Below the pieces are notes generated by a model. The model was not told the origin of the DNA, did not search any database, and saw only the letters and a program-made list of their open reading frames with translations. This document shows, one piece after another, positions 2,361 to 4,996 of a stretch of 5,839 bases of DNA. Both the position numbers and the translations under genes were made by a program. The DNA is from a bacterium (GTDB lineage Bacteria > Patescibacteria > Microgenomatia > Levybacterales > GWA1-39-11), in assembly GCA_021825285.1 (NCBI GenBank), contig JAKAHW010000064.1:1-5839 (forward strand), read 5' to 3'. Numbering within the stretch: position 1 is the first letter of the stretch; each line of letters begins with the position of its first letter.

Positions 2361-2990
2361 ATGGAAGAAGACCTGAAAAAAAGGGTTGTTTTGCTTTCGT
2401 TTTTGGGAAAGGCAGGAAGAAGGGGCTTCTTTCTAACCTCCTATTTTATTTTTTTGCCGGCTTTTATTCTCTCCATAGCCTTGTTTCAAGTAATACTTTT
2501 AAGTCAAAAGTCAAACGTCAATAGATCCGGAACCACTCGTTCCATTGAATATAAAGCCGTACCTGATAGAAAGCAGGATTCGGTTGTTTCTATTGTCCCC
2601 AGAGAGGCTAGGGTAGACATACTTTTGGATTTCTTGTCAAAATACAAATCACCTCTTGCCCCATATGCCAAAATGATCGTTGATACCGCTGACAAATATG
2701 GACTGGATTATAGACTTATTCCGGCAATTGCCATGCAGGAGAGCACGCTATGTAAAAAAATGCCAAAGGATTCCTATAACTGTTGGGGATTTGGAATTTA
2801 CGGCAAAAAGGTGACCCGGTTTCCGAATTTTGATTCTGCAATTGAAACAGTAACCAAAACTTTGGCCAAAAATTATAAATCGATGGGACTAGTAGAGCCG
2901 CAGGAAATTATGAGCATTTACACACCTTCAAACAATGGAATATGGGCAGACAACGTCTCTTATATAATGACAAAGCTCGAGCTCCCATAA
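2361..2990 (+). CDS. Membrane-anchored lysozyme-like (glucosaminidase/transglycosylase-type) protein
   Basis: The 209-residue protein has a basic N-terminus (to about 22), one hydrophobic anchor (about 23-48), a variable linker (49-80) and a C-terminal domain (about 84-209) with the look of small lysozyme-fold cell-wall hydrolases. YGLDYRLIPAIAMQES (113-128) places Glu127 as the candidate catalytic acid. It is followed by SYNCWGFGIYG (138-148) and a late TPSNNG..W motif. Cys131 and Cys141 could form a disulfide. The topology predicts a domain outside the membrane, acting on peptidoglycan. I start at ATG 2361, because the in-frame TTG at 2325 is the T of a perfect -35 box. AGGA lies just before the ATG but very close. 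A paralogue follows at 3322. The fold is well supported; actual bond cleavage is inferred. Confidence 0.8.
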   Translation: MEEDLKKRVVLLSFLGKAGRRGFFLTSYFIFLPAFILSIALFQVILLSQKSNVNRSGTTRSIEYKAVPDRKQDSVVSIVPREARVDILLDFLSKYKSPLAPYAKMIVDTADKYGLDYRLIPAIAMQESTLCKKMPKDSYNCWGFGIYGKKVTRFPNFDSAIETVTKTLAKNYKSMGLVEPQEIMSIYTPSNNGIWADNVSYIMTKLELP

Positions 2991-2993
2991 ACT

Positions 2994-3024
2994 AGTCAAT
3001 AGTCACTAGTAAATAGTCAATAGT
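2994..3024 (+). repeat. 7-bp tandem repeat, about 4.4 copies
   Basis: Consecutive units AGTCAAT, AGTCACT, AGTAAAT, AGTCAAT and a final AGT, directly after the stop codon of the first lysozyme-like gene. It is non-coding and lies upstream of the promoter at 3120. Heptamer arrays of this kind expand and contract by slippage. Confidence 0.85.
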
Positions 3025-3103
3025 TTTAAACTCCTTGTTACATCCTGTAGTATGAAAGTAAGCATTTCCAGGTTCGTTTATCGTGCCTAAAATTGTCACA
3101 ACG
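3025..3103. other. Intergenic stretch with no recognised feature
   Basis: Part of the 331-base gap between the two lysozyme-like genes. I see no reading frame, tRNA or convincing promoter pair here. The rest of the gap holds the heptamer array (left) and the promoter/terminator module (right), listed separately. Confidence 0.5.
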
Positions 3104-3139
3104 GCTTATAGTTTAGGACTTGACAAGCTTATAGTCCTA
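3104..3139. promoter_or_regulatory. Candidate operator: inverted and direct repeats over the -35 box
   Basis: TAGGACT (3114-3120) and AGTCCTA (3133-3139) form a perfect 7-bp inverted repeat with a 12-bp gap that straddles the -35 box and half the spacer. In addition GCTTATAGT occurs twice (3104-3112 and 3127-3135), 23 bp apart, about two helical turns. Either could bind a regulator that blocks this otherwise perfect promoter. No regulator gene is in the window. Confidence 0.45.
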
Positions 3140-3148
3140 TGCTATAAT
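3120..3148 (+). promoter_or_regulatory. Perfect sigma-70 promoter
   Basis: TTGACA (3120-3125), exactly 17 nt, TATAAT (3143-3148), with TG at 3140-3141 adding the extended -10 element. This is the strongest promoter in the window. Transcription should start around 3154-3156, only a few bases before the terminator stem at 3159. Confidence 0.88.
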
Positions 3149-3154
3149 GCCCAG

Positions 3155-3197
3155 TTAGATCCTAAGGTAGCCCAAAACTACTTTAGGATTTTTTTTG
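3155..3197 (+). ncRNA. Predicted very short RNA or attenuated leader
   Basis: From the predicted start near 3155 to the end of the T-run the transcript would be about 42 nt, almost all of it the terminator hairpin. It has no reading frame and no room for an upstream aptamer. It could be a small RNA or a leader in which transcription of the lysozyme-like gene is normally stopped. This is an inference from the promoter and terminator positions. Confidence 0.4.
3159..3196 (+). terminator. Strong intrinsic terminator
   Basis: A 12-bp stem, 3159-3170 (ATCCTAAGGTAG) with 3178-3189 (CTACTTTAGGAT), contains one G-U pair. It has a 7-nt loop CCCAAAA and is followed directly by T (3190-3196). It could end the transcript of the upstream lysozyme-like gene, but it lies just after the perfect promoter and before the second lysozyme-like gene. 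Confidence 0.9.
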
Positions 3198-3233
3198 GGC
3201 GCAAAGCAATTATCAATTCAGTTAGTTGCGCCT
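3197..3233 (+). promoter_or_regulatory. Second hairpin after the terminator
   Basis: GGCGCAA (3198-3204) pairs perfectly with TTGCGCC (3226-3232), extendable by a G-T pair, with a 21-nt loop. Its left arm overlaps the GGGC that can also pair with the terminator loop, so the structures exclude one another. The loop repeats CAGTTAG, also found at 3152-3158 at the transcript start. Confidence 0.55.
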
Positions 3234-3260
3234 AATACAAACTCCAAATTCTTCTCAGGT

Positions 3261-3289
3261 TTGACAAATGTTCAAGCTCAAGTTTCAAA
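3261..3289 (+). promoter_or_regulatory. Possible direct promoter of the second lysozyme-like gene
   Basis: Perfect TTGACA at 3261-3266, then after 17 nt TTCAAA (3284-3289), a poor -10 matching 3 of 6. If real, it would bypass the terminator and give a leader of about 25 nt before ATG 3322. Confidence 0.3.
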
Positions 3290-3321: not shown

Positions 3322-3867
3322 ATGAAAAAAGTATTAATCTTTATAGCAATATTGATTGCTTTTGCTCTAACCAAGCAAGCAGCTTTTGCTGCAACTTCGG
3401 AAACTGATTCCGCGAAATTGGTAGCTATGGCTCCTAAGGTTTCTACAAAACCTGACTACAGAGTCAAAGCGCTTCAGAATATTTTTAAAAAATATAACTC
3501 TCCTCTCGTGGATTACGCACGCTTTTACGTAAAATACGCAGATAAATATTCTGTGGACTGGAAGCTTTTACCTTCTATTTCAGGCCTTGAATCAAGCTTT
3601 GGACAATTCCTTATGCCCGGATCCTACAACGGCTATGGATGGGGTGGGGGATACATCTATTTTAAAGACTGGGAAGATGGAATTGACACCATTAATAGAA
3701 CCATACGTGACAACTATATGGATAAATGGGGAGCAACTGATGTATGGTCAATTGGGCCTATTTATGCAGAAAGCAAAACCTGGTCAGTTAGGGTTAATGG
3801 CTTCATGAACGAAATAGAAGCTGAATACTTAAAACTGGCTTCGCCTACGCTTCTCGTAACCATCTAA
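3322..3867 (+). CDS. Secreted lysozyme-like (glucosaminidase/transglycosylase-type) protein
   Basis: The 181-residue protein begins with a clear signal peptide: MKK, a hydrophobic core, then AFA before the likely cleavage at 23/24. A short linker leads to a lysozyme-fold domain (about 48-172). YSVDWKLLPSISGLESSFG (76-94) puts Glu90 where the paralogue at 2361 has Glu127. It is followed by SYNGYGWGGGYIYFKDWEDG (101-120) and IYAESKTW (147-154). It lacks the Cys pair of the paralogue and has a glycine-rich turn instead. Substrate is presumably peptidoglycan, outside the cell or in the envelope. An in-frame ATG at 3268 would add 18 residues before the signal peptide, so I prefer 3322 although neither start has a Shine-Dalgarno sequence. 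The upstream promoter and terminator suggest controlled expression. Fold confidence is good, enzyme activity inferred. Confidence 0.8.
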   Translation: MKKVLIFIAILIAFALTKQAAFAATSETDSAKLVAMAPKVSTKPDYRVKALQNIFKKYNSPLVDYARFYVKYADKYSVDWKLLPSISGLESSFGQFLMPGSYNGYGWGGGYIYFKDWEDGIDTINRTIRDNYMDKWGATDVWSIGPIYAESKTWSVRVNGFMNEIEAEYLKLASPTLLVTI

Positions 3868-3893: not shown

Positions 3894-3977
3894 GCCGAAG
3901 TGGTGAAATGGCAGACACGCATGGTTTAGGACCATGTGCCCTTAAAAAGCGTGGAGGTTCGAATCCTCTCTTCGGCA
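3894..3977 (+). tRNA. tRNA-Leu(TAG)
   Basis: Type II tRNA. Acceptor GCCGAAG pairs with CTTCGGC, anticodon stem CATGG/CCATG encloses loop TTTAGGA (anticodon TAG, reads CUA and by wobble other CUN), followed by a long variable arm, a T-arm GGAGG/CCTCT with TTCGAAT, and discriminator A. No CCA is encoded (sequence continues CAAAG). With the GAG and CAG genes upstream, the window covers the whole CUN leucine box. Confidence 0.97.
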
Positions 3978-4081: not shown

Positions 4082-4996
4082 ATGGCAAAAACAAAAAAAT
4101 CCCAAACAACAGCAAAAACAGAGGAGAAGCAGTCGGTCAAACAAGAACGATATTCTGTTTCAAAAGCTGTTGACAACACAATCAACATCAAAATAGTAAT
4201 TCCGTGGCATGAAGTCGAAAAGGTAAGAAAAGAAGTAAGTAACGAACTCGTAAAAGAGGTTCAAGTTCCGGGATTTCGAAAAGGGAAAGCGCCACGTGAT
4301 ATAGCAGAAGTAAAACTTTCCAAAGAAAAAGTAAACGAAGAGGTCCTAAAGAAAGTCTTGACCAAGGAATATGTTGAGGCTGTAAAGGCAAACAATATCC
4401 AGCCAATCCTAAATCCAAAAATCCATATTGAAGCTTTTGATGAAGGCACAAATCTTGAGTTTATGGCCGAAACCTGTGAAGAACCGGTTGTGGAGCTAAA
4501 TAGCTATAAAGATGAGGTGAAAAAGGTTAATGCTGCTTCAAAGATTATTGTGCCCCCTTCGGCAAGCTCAGGGCAAGCGAACCAGGAACCCAAAAAGATA
4601 TCTTTGGAAGAAATTCTGGAAACAGTCCTTAAAGTAACCAAAATTACGATCCCGAAGGTCTTGGCAGAACAGGAAGCAAATAGGCTTCTCTCCCAGCTTC
4701 TGGATGAACTCAAAACAATTGGCGTTTCGCTTGACCAATTTCTTGCTTCCAGAGGCAAAACCGGAGACGAAATAAGAGCAGAGTATATGGAAAAAGCCGA
4801 AAAAGATTTGAAGCTTGAATTTTTATTGAGAAAAATTGCGGATTCTGAAAAAATAACGGTTGAAGAAAAAGATATTCAAGAAGCATTAGCCTCAATTACA
4901 GACGAAAAACAAAAAAAGGAATTAATGGCCAATCCATACTTTTTAGCCGCTATTATTCGCCAACAAAAGACCATAGATTTCCTCTCTAAAATTTAA
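4082..4996 (+). CDS. tig: Trigger factor lacking the PPIase domain
   Basis: Ribosome-bound chaperone for nascent chains, 304 residues against about 430 in E. coli. A Lys/Thr/Gln-rich extension (1-22) precedes the N-terminal ribosome-binding domain (about 23-140), which carries the signature VPGFRKGKAP (62-71) that docks near the tunnel exit. After the EEPVVELNSY segment the protein passes through a short linker to the helical C-terminal chaperone domain (about 170-304: KITIPKVLAEQEANRLL onward). The FKBP-like PPIase domain that normally sits between them is absent. Residues 159-166 (PSASSGQA) are encoded by a 24-bp copy of a dispersed repeat inserted exactly in frame in this linker. The ATG is supported by a promoter ending seven bases upstream. 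It is probably a single-gene unit, since the next gene has its own promoter. The identification is secure from the signature and domain order. Confidence 0.95.
   Translation: MAKTKKSQTTAKTEEKQSVKQERYSVSKAVDNTINIKIVIPWHEVEKVRKEVSNELVKEVQVPGFRKGKAPRDIAEVKLSKEKVNEEVLKKVLTKEYVEAVKANNIQPILNPKIHIEAFDEGTNLEFMAETCEEPVVELNSYKDEVKKVNAASKIIVPPSASSGQANQEPKKISLEEILETVLKVTKITIPKVLAEQEANRLLSQLLDELKTIGVSLDQFLASRGKTGDEIRAEYMEKAEKDLKLEFLLRKIADSEKITVEEKDIQEALASITDEKQKKELMANPYFLAAIIRQQKTIDFLSKI
4556..4579 (+). repeat. Dispersed repeat element inserted in frame in tig
   Basis: 24 bp beginning CCTTCGGCAAGCTCAGGGCA and ending AGCG. From memory, close variants (CTTCGACAAGCTCAGG...) are scattered in many bacterial genomes, including CPR, and give tell-tale peptides such as SASSGQA on one strand and ACPELAEG on the other. 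Length is a multiple of three, so the frame is kept. Its core GGCAAGCTCAG appears in reverse complement at 815-825. Confidence 0.7.

Follow-up and report, generated by a model that had tools for sequence, protein, structure and literature searches.

A promoter followed directly by a terminator hairpin, conserved upstream of a glucosaminidase-like gene in Levybacterales and related bacteria

Between two tandem paralogous genes in a genome of the order Levybacterales (assembly GCA_021825285.1), a promoter, a hairpin and a run of eight T follow one another directly. This arrangement raises the question of what a full-consensus promoter is for, if the RNA that it starts would end after about 40 nt at a terminator formed by its very first bases. 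The window, meaning the whole stretch of DNA that was analyzed, comprises positions 1 to 5,839 of contig JAKAHW010000064.1 (5,839 nt, forward strand). Its features around the promoter are listed in Table 1.

Table 1. Features of the promoter, the hairpin and the neighboring genes in the window.
Feature	Position	Strand	Basis or remark
Upstream tandem paralog 1	2361-2990	+	28% identity with paralog 2 over 156 columns
Upstream box, GCTTATAGT	3104-3112	+	general form (A/G)CC(T/C)ATAGT; direct repeat D3, spacing 23
-35 element, TTGACA	3120-3125	+	promoter scan of the window
Spacer box between -35 and -10, GCTTATAGT	3127-3135	+	majority form AACCTATAGT
Extended -10, TGCTATAAT	3140-3148	+	TG 3140-3141, TATAAT 3143-3148
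Predicted RNA of about 40 nt, terminator hairpin and U-run alone	3157-3196	+
5' arm, GATCCTAAGGTAG	3158-3170	+	folding; AGATCCTAAGGT conserved across the class
Loop, CCCAAAA	3171-3177	+	same in nine Levybacteria-type copies, variable elsewhere
3' arm, CTACTTTAGGATT, with AGGA	3178-3190	+	folding; several pairs show compensatory changes within the family
U-run, 8 T	3189-3196	+	sequence
Second hairpin right after the U-run	3195-3235	+	arms near 3195-3204 and 3226-3235
Glucosaminidase-like (muramidase-type) gene, predicted secreted, paralog 2	3322-3867	+	in-frame ATG also at 3268
tRNA gene	3894-3977	+
Trigger-factor gene	4082-4996	+

Layout and conservation of the promoter and the hairpin

For the comparison, genomes were searched by alignment with the downstream protein, and the best 80 of 252 confirmed loci were used. 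Upstream of the downstream paralog, 64 loci of the order (the window, L001-L008 and L105-L159) were examined; a TTGACA...TAnnnT promoter is present in all 64 and a hairpin of the form TCCT...AGGA(T/C) lies close behind it in 62. Together with 40 copies of the class, which were taken from the matches outside the order and are mostly the better-scoring ones, and with L160 and L162, these 62 (window included) give 104 parsed copies. Taxon names are those of the record titles, which cover L001-L080. All counts over relatives ignore kinship. The order, the spacing and the conservation of promoter, boxes, hairpin and U-run described below emerge from this comparison.

The promoter had been described as a full-consensus one with an extended -10, and the scan bears this out, since 12 of 12 positions match, with a spacer of 17 nt and the TG of an extended -10. 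It is the sole 12/12 site among the 22 promoter-like sites of the window, compared with 13.7 such sites of any strength in shuffled sequences. TTGACA is exact in 98 of the 104 copies (62 of the 104 were found with a pattern that includes TTGACA), TG occurs in 82 and TATAAT in 55. The promoter match reaches at least 11/12 in 96 copies and the spacer measures 17 nt in 91. Where the copies were located by their hairpin, independently of the promoter (n = 42), a promoter of at least 10/12 is found in 40, versus 0.9% in shuffled upstream DNA.

The window furthermore contains a box, GCTTATAGT, at two places of the promoter region, which is absent from the preliminary description. Using a loose regular expression, a CCTATAGT-like box was detected in the spacer of 92/104 copies (3.2 expected from shuffled spacers) and missed in 12. 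A second box within 25 nt upstream of the -35 element was recovered in 42/104 copies against 1/104 in a control stretch, likewise by regular expression. Both boxes were scored in 36 copies, and in 33 of these they are 23 nt apart. The pattern TTGACANACCTATAGT, with at most one mismatch, occurs at 61 sites in 60 of the 82 order genomes, 55 of them at the hydrolase promoter and six elsewhere; read backwards, the pattern gives 11 sites in the 82 genomes. Because 55 of the 61 sites lie at the hydrolase promoter and the box is hardly found elsewhere, a regulator dedicated to the boxed promoter is likely.

Two further observations concern the vicinity of the promoter. In the Daviesbacteria-type loci L013, L016, L020, L024, L025, L026 and L027, the stretch leading from the -10 toward the hairpin is conserved as well (ACTATCGG...) and forms an additional motif between promoter and start. 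In the window, two tandem 14-nt repeats, ACTAGTCAATAGTC, lie at 2991-3018 between the upstream paralog and the promoter; they were not noticed in the upstream stretches of L001-L008.

The distance from the -10 to the A of AGATCC is 6-8 nt in 104/104 copies, a range that the scoring slightly favored, and a pyrimidine precedes this A in 101. Transcription had been placed near 3155, with an RNA of about 42 nt. The short RNA holds up and the start site is shifted, as the 104 copies point to a start that is probably A3157 and to an RNA of about 40 nt. The hairpin RNA would then begin 8 nt past the promoter (3148 to 3157). Positions +2 to +7 read GATCCT in 95/104 copies, with A at position 2 and T at position 6 in 99.

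The 12-bp terminator stem reported to begin at 3159 was recovered with arms 3159-3170 and 3178-3189. Folding of 3157-3196 gives -16.0 kcal/mol (z -4.6, 0/200 shuffles as good), and the region 3100-3260 as a whole has a z of -5.9 (0/200 shuffles). This terminator has the most pairs (14) of the four terminator-like sites found in the window; as a class, such sites are not in excess (4 versus 5.9 in shuffles). A T-run of 6-8 is present in 95/104 copies; in this count and in those of the tail and the second hairpin below, L160 and L162 entered with a 3' end displaced by one base.

The nine Levybacteria-type copies, those of the window and of L001-L008, do not differ at any position of the 33-nt hairpin. 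The nine downstream genes have a mean pairwise protein identity of 58% and agree at 626 of 1,595 fourfold-degenerate sites (39%). Because the hairpin is identical while the fourfold sites are only 39% identical, it is, judged by this comparison, under strong constraint. L001-L008, whose proteins are 53-69% identical over the best segment, share an identical 27-nt core upstream of the gene, and this exact core was found upstream in none of the other 72 of the 80 loci. The distance from hairpin to gene varies among the nine copies, and the downstream flanks differ among L001-L008, including the tail TTTTGGGC and the next hairpin.

Covariation among relatives, suggested earlier as a check, was assessed on 40 hairpins picked as non-redundant (alignment A2). 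Standard pairs fill 91.9% of the cells, and seven pairs are changed on both sides, in 35 such cells. Kinship being ignored, neither two-sided count was reached in any of 500 shuffles and slid controls were far lower, so that the stem covaries. The alignment covered the hairpin with the tail excluded, and its consensus fold is a single hairpin. Homologous hairpins carry CCTGAGG, CCTTAGG, CCTCAGG, CCTGGGG or CCTACGG, each with the matching 3' arm. In the 57 unique arm pairs, the AGATCCTAAGGT strand is less variable than its partner at stem positions 1, 4, 7, 10 and 12 and more variable at positions 2, 3 and 8. Position 10 is non-Watson-Crick in 51 of the 57 (GG 27, GU 22, AC 2). The segment TCCTAAGGTAGC (3160-3171) equals what we take to be the universally conserved stretch of 23S rRNA after helix 69. 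Mimicry of the rRNA was dropped as an explanation, as variant hairpins in relatives break the match, which was taken as chance.

Where the U-run of the first hairpin is lost, a second terminator-like structure is found. In the order loci L124, L133, L143 and L151, the first hairpin has no U-run; behind it lies another hairpin that does end in one. Because loci with a lost U-run gain a following hairpin with U-run, termination itself seems to be under selection. The second hairpin of these loci reads e.g. ATCCTAA...TTAGGATTTTTTT, as if the element had been duplicated and the roles of 5' hairpin and terminator split. A different change is found in L139 (genome G034) and L144 (genome G033), which keep the promoter and the boxes; here the hairpin is swapped for a longer, G+C-rich one with TTCCAA in the loop and no U-run, directly 5' of the hydrolase gene.

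Distribution and linkage to the hydrolase gene

A covariance model, R1, was built from the A2 hairpins; its match to the window at 3156-3195 scores 50 bits, the window sequence being part of the model. R1 matches in 63 of the 82 order genomes, at one place each, and weak extra matches in three of the order genomes are the same palindrome on the opposite strand. In 61 of the 63 genomes the match lies right before the glucosaminidase-like gene, the two exceptions being G042 and G065. The 19 order genomes without a match comprise 16 without an A1-family gene, G063, which has only paralog 1, and G033 and G034. Thus, 0/16 order genomes lacking any A1-family gene have the element according to R1, an absence that is weak evidence in draft genomes. 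An A1-family gene was found in 66/82 order genomes, most of the order showing two A1 matches in each genome.

In the class sample, at least 145 of 373 genomes match R1 with E-values up to 0.01 (order members included), and in the phylum sample 12/379 with E-values up to 0.001, of which 11 were also matched in the order and class searches. The twelfth is G666 (L237, C63:41248-41281, 31.9 bits), with no A1-family gene within 3 kb; it may be a chance match or a sixth copy without the gene. Two weak matches within one genome occur in G281 (C21:178257-178302 and C1:131227-131275), the only such case among the matches listed. R1 gave no match in 20 genomes reached via more distant loci (0/20). One of these 20, the genome of L017, carries a promoter-terminator of the AGATCC type, which shows that R1 misses distant copies and leaves 19 genomes as the actual control. 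In this locus, which is titled Omnitrophota, a promoter and a AGATCCCAGGG...CTCTGGGAT terminator precede an A1 relative at about 1947-2024; the bin may be wrongly labelled, or the family may extend beyond the group sampled here. The record of L006 is titled Parcubacteria and its genome (G006) is grouped with the Levybacteria order; the element is present and the upstream paralog absent.

The protein family behind the element resembles the Pfam family Glucosaminidase (PF01832), which matches 33/33 A1 members with E-values up to 0.1; the paralog 2 of the window scores 15.7 bits, below the curated cut-off of 30.2. Its closest named relatives are records of Levybacteria and other Patescibacteria, and, judging from its start, the protein is presumably secreted.

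The proposal that the element belongs to the following, lysozyme-like gene is borne out by the counts that are unbiased in this respect: besides the 61 of 63 order matches from the whole-genome search, 36 of the 40 class copies precede the gene. Over all parsed copies the gene follows in 98/104, a number that is partly given by construction, as the 62 order copies were located upstream of the gene by promoter and hairpin patterns; five copies are without the gene and one (L216) ends at the contig edge. Furthermore, promoter-terminators were surveyed on both strands of 327 kb of the loci L001-L042 (promoter of at least 10/12, spacer 17). Among 126 promoter-like sites, 25 have a strong terminator 3-12 nt behind. 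All 25 lie at most about 300 nt upstream of an A1 gene and on the strand of that gene, and they include unrelated hairpin sequences in Daviesbacteria and Woykebacteria records.

In 32 of the 98 copies with the gene, a start codon abuts the U-run (26 ATG, 4 TTG and 2 GTG); the abutting start of L227 overlaps the T-run and is possibly spurious. In these copies the promoter and the leader must therefore serve the gene, and by position the hairpin is the whole leader, with the AGGA of its 3' arm placed as a ribosome-binding site. The first possible start lies 11-203 nt past the stem in the other 66. For Levybacteria, coding right after the U-run was considered and rejected, because the start-like codons there open short unrelated frames; of the nine copies, only that of L003 is in frame with the gene.

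The five copies without the gene differ in what follows them. G042 and G065 have lost paralog 2, and in both of them paralog 1, the element and a tRNA-Leu gene come one after the other. G136 has the element with a decayed U-run and then tRNA-Leu. In G272 (L224) the gene that lies about 20 nt past the element encodes elongation factor P and not the hydrolase. In G091, the DNA examined behind the element contains only an opposite-strand ORF of 378 codons without a Pfam match. A search with A1 found only the upstream paralog 1 at the locus in these five genomes, and in G091 one further, very weak match (E 0.01) on another contig. The U-run is intact in four of the five. In G091, moreover, both bases of one stem pair are changed and still match, as A-T instead of T-A; at this position the remaining 56 of 57 unique arm pairs have T-A or T-G. 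The persistence of these copies, with a paired double change in G091, suggests a purpose of the short RNA, or of the unit of promoter and terminator, that is independent of the hydrolase; alternatively, the gene may have been lost only recently.

Proposed control of the hydrolase gene and competing explanations

What the unit does, from its start site and actual termination to the control of readthrough and an extra role of the short RNA, we infer from this layout. The favored reading, to which we give about an even chance, is a transcription unit that is off by default, with the hydrolase gene depending on regulated readthrough. The near-consensus promoter would start the RNA at about A3157, and RNA polymerase would halt about 40 nt further on at the intrinsic terminator, which makes up the whole transcript. 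By default the hairpin RNA alone would be produced, and the glucosaminidase-like gene would be expressed only upon readthrough. A factor recruited at the CCTATAGT box between -35 and -10, often with the second box 23 bp upstream, would carry the polymerase past the terminator, and GATCCT (+2 to +7) may act as a -10-like pause element.

An antiterminator made of RNA, or a leader RNA in this role, is implausible, because no RNA precedes the hairpin and the downstream RNA is absent when termination is decided; if the predicted start is right, the anatomy excludes it. Three routes are left for expression, namely leakage, action of a factor on the hairpin as it emerges, and loading of a factor at the promoter. 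The last would be the most likely, because a conserved box lies between -35 and -10 and is hardly found elsewhere. Against default-off control it can be held that the boxes could instead be the operator of a repressor. The copies without the gene, one of them facing only an opposite-strand ORF, are not explained by pure control in cis, and G033 and G034 keep gene and promoter with a different hairpin and no U-run. A wider version would join both roles, namely a class-conserved RNA gene of about 40 nt that consists of an intrinsic terminator only, is present at one place per genome, blocks the hydrolase gene and is an RNA in its own right, with its own promoter-loaded antiterminator unrelated to Q; this combination we regard as unlikely.

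If the default-off reading is true, the unit would be a class-wide dedicated regulatory device in a group of bacteria with poorly known gene regulation. The controlled enzyme would be a secreted cutter of the cell wall, and cells that presumably depend on a host may need it to be off until wanted. If confirmed, the unit would represent a minimal natural transcript made of its own terminator only. It would also offer a clean test of polymerase passage through a terminator that the earliest bases of the RNA form, and might point the way to a new antiterminator or to an RNA regulator of very small size.

A stand-alone regulatory RNA, as which the element had also been proposed, is the first competitor, possible though doubtful. 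The 40-nt hairpin would be the product and would act in trans or bind a protein, the hydrolase gene being partly linked. As a possibility this is upheld by the five copies without the gene (G042, G065, G136, G091 and G272), which keep promoter, hairpin and in four cases the U-run, and by the paired double change in G091. It is in line with the identity of the 33-nt hairpin in nine copies despite the divergence of fourfold sites and the varying distance to the gene, and with the non-Watson-Crick position 10, which looks as if something recognised the stem. By its sequence, the element also has the promoter and terminator of its own that are expected of a trans-acting small RNA. Against it stand the tight linkage to the gene, which follows in 61 of 63 order matches and 36 of the 40 class copies, together with the lack of the element in all 16 order genomes without A1, the start codons abutting the U-run in 32 copies, and the loop, which is not conserved over the class. 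A conserved complement is missing as well: outside the elements, exact AGATCCTAAGGT occurs at seven sites in 82 genomes against three for the reversed pattern. This is near chance, and a conserved antisense partner or a second copy was rejected as a candidate.

Quite unlikely is a leader that acts on translation or stability, in which the hairpin masks the AGGA ribosome site and protects the 5' end of the mRNA and the U-run is mostly spacer. The purine-rich 3' arm (AGGA in most copies), the U-run and then a start codon in 32/98 copies would fit, as would the U-run-less hairpin right before the gene in G033 and G034. AGGA and U-run, however, persist in the 66/98 copies with a first start 11-203 nt past the stem. 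In L210, a compensatory change destroys AGGA while the start still abuts, and the second terminator-like hairpin following a lost U-run in four loci would be unexpected for a spacer.

The preliminary description had suggested a switch, in which pairing of the loop and its flanking G (3170-3177) with TTTTGGGC at 3193-3200 would compete with both the terminator and the hairpin that follows. In the window the pairing is perfect (8/8 complementary), it is equally long in L002, and the next hairpin is present. A strong second hairpin directly past the U-run is common but not universal, being found in 34/100 copies versus 1.75 expected in shuffles. Over 100 copies the mean complementary run between loop and tail is 3.80 versus 3.59 with permuted tails (reached in 4/500 permutations), and runs of at least six occur in seven copies versus 3.0 (12/500). 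This excess is weak and may be explained by kinship, which was ignored. The three-way pairing is not supported by the relatives, as runs of at least six complementary bases are found in only 4/9 copies with the same loop and in 7/100 overall. Moreover, the TTTTGGGC tail is transcribed only past the terminator and could act only after readthrough, and the consensus fold, the tail lying outside its alignment, holds a single hairpin. Taken as a whole, the switch is very improbable.

That the hairpin only ends transcription of the upstream gene and stands behind a promoter by coincidence is extremely improbable. In 87/104 copies, the longest ORF close by on the upstream side does share the strand of the element (81 with at least 90 codons; 14 unassigned, 3 opposite). 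But the relatives that would keep the terminator and lose the promoter, named earlier as the sign of such a case, are not what was found, as 40/42 hairpin-located copies have a promoter matching at 10 or more of 12 positions immediately ahead and the gap to the -10 stays at 6-8 nt in 104/104. In two loci, L196 (CTP_transf_like) and L206 (LAGLIDADG), the upstream gene is divergent and so cannot use the terminator. In L206, a group I intron match and the LAGLIDADG ORF were noted next to the element (2093-2389 and 1456-2157); the intron scores 37.9 bits, below the cut-off of 50.

Relation to known systems

The element was compared with Rfam 15, and in the window and six relatives no family scored above its gathering cut-off at the element; the best overlapping score, SAM-II on the opposite strand of the window (23.5 versus a cut-off of 44), was rejected. 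A phage origin is not indicated, as no element match was found in annotated phages and the exact 22-base core is absent from viral contigs. No description of such a hairpin RNA was found among the top-ranked records of the open-access PMC literature, and the portions available of PMC11665869 and PMC8172020 contain no mention of such an RNA. The element is thus apparently an undescribed conserved RNA unit. Its parts are of known kinds; their combination, a predicted terminator-only transcript with class-wide conservation at one gene and occasional presence where this gene is missing, appears to be new.

Bacterial short RNAs associated with start sites (tssRNAs) measure about 45 nt, occur at many promoters and are not known to have a conserved hairpin. 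The hairpin unit is similar to them in length and promoter position and differs in being one conserved site per genome.

The HMP-PP (thiS) riboswitch is likewise a compact conserved intrinsic terminator used as a regulatory element and, in the part of the source available, it is described with an abnormally conserved loop and an alternative P1/pseudoknot fold (PMC6478431). In contrast, the loop of the hairpin unit is variable over the class, the comparison supports a single fold, and nothing is predicted to be transcribed ahead of the hairpin; the conserved core with alternative fold that characterizes a riboswitch was not found in the copies compared.

A first likeness is to the promoter pR' of phage lambda. 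The short RNA from lambda pR' measures about 194 nt, unlike the approximately 40 nt predicted here. In both cases a promoter is followed by a terminator, and for lambda pR'-tR' this terminator is overcome by Q, which requires a DNA element at the promoter, and late (lysis) genes lie downstream (PMC7171158). The same source describes loading of Q onto polymerase that has paused, in a sigma-dependent manner, close to the promoter (PMC7171158). Searching the 82 order genomes for the known Q families gave 0/82 for PF03589 and 0/82 above the cut-off for PF06530, with two weak partial matches below it. In view of these negative searches, a likeness is suggested and membership in a Q system is not claimed.

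AlpA offers the second likeness. In the excerpts consulted, its binding element lies between -10 and -35, a terminator begins 26 bp past one start site, and lysis genes are the targets (PMC7969949); the position of the element is likened there to that of the lambda Q element (PMC7969949). The layout with an element between -35 and -10, a terminator near the start (26 bp at PA0807) and lysis genes behind (PMC7969949, PMC9371919, as far as these texts were available) resembles the unit studied here, where a predicted terminator, hairpin with 6-8 T in 95/104 copies, lies between promoter and gene and the conserved box, a putative binding site, lies within the promoter (92/104 copies versus 3.2 when shuffled). 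The hairpin unit differs from AlpA in having a terminator that begins at the predicted start itself and is conserved in sequence over a bacterial class.
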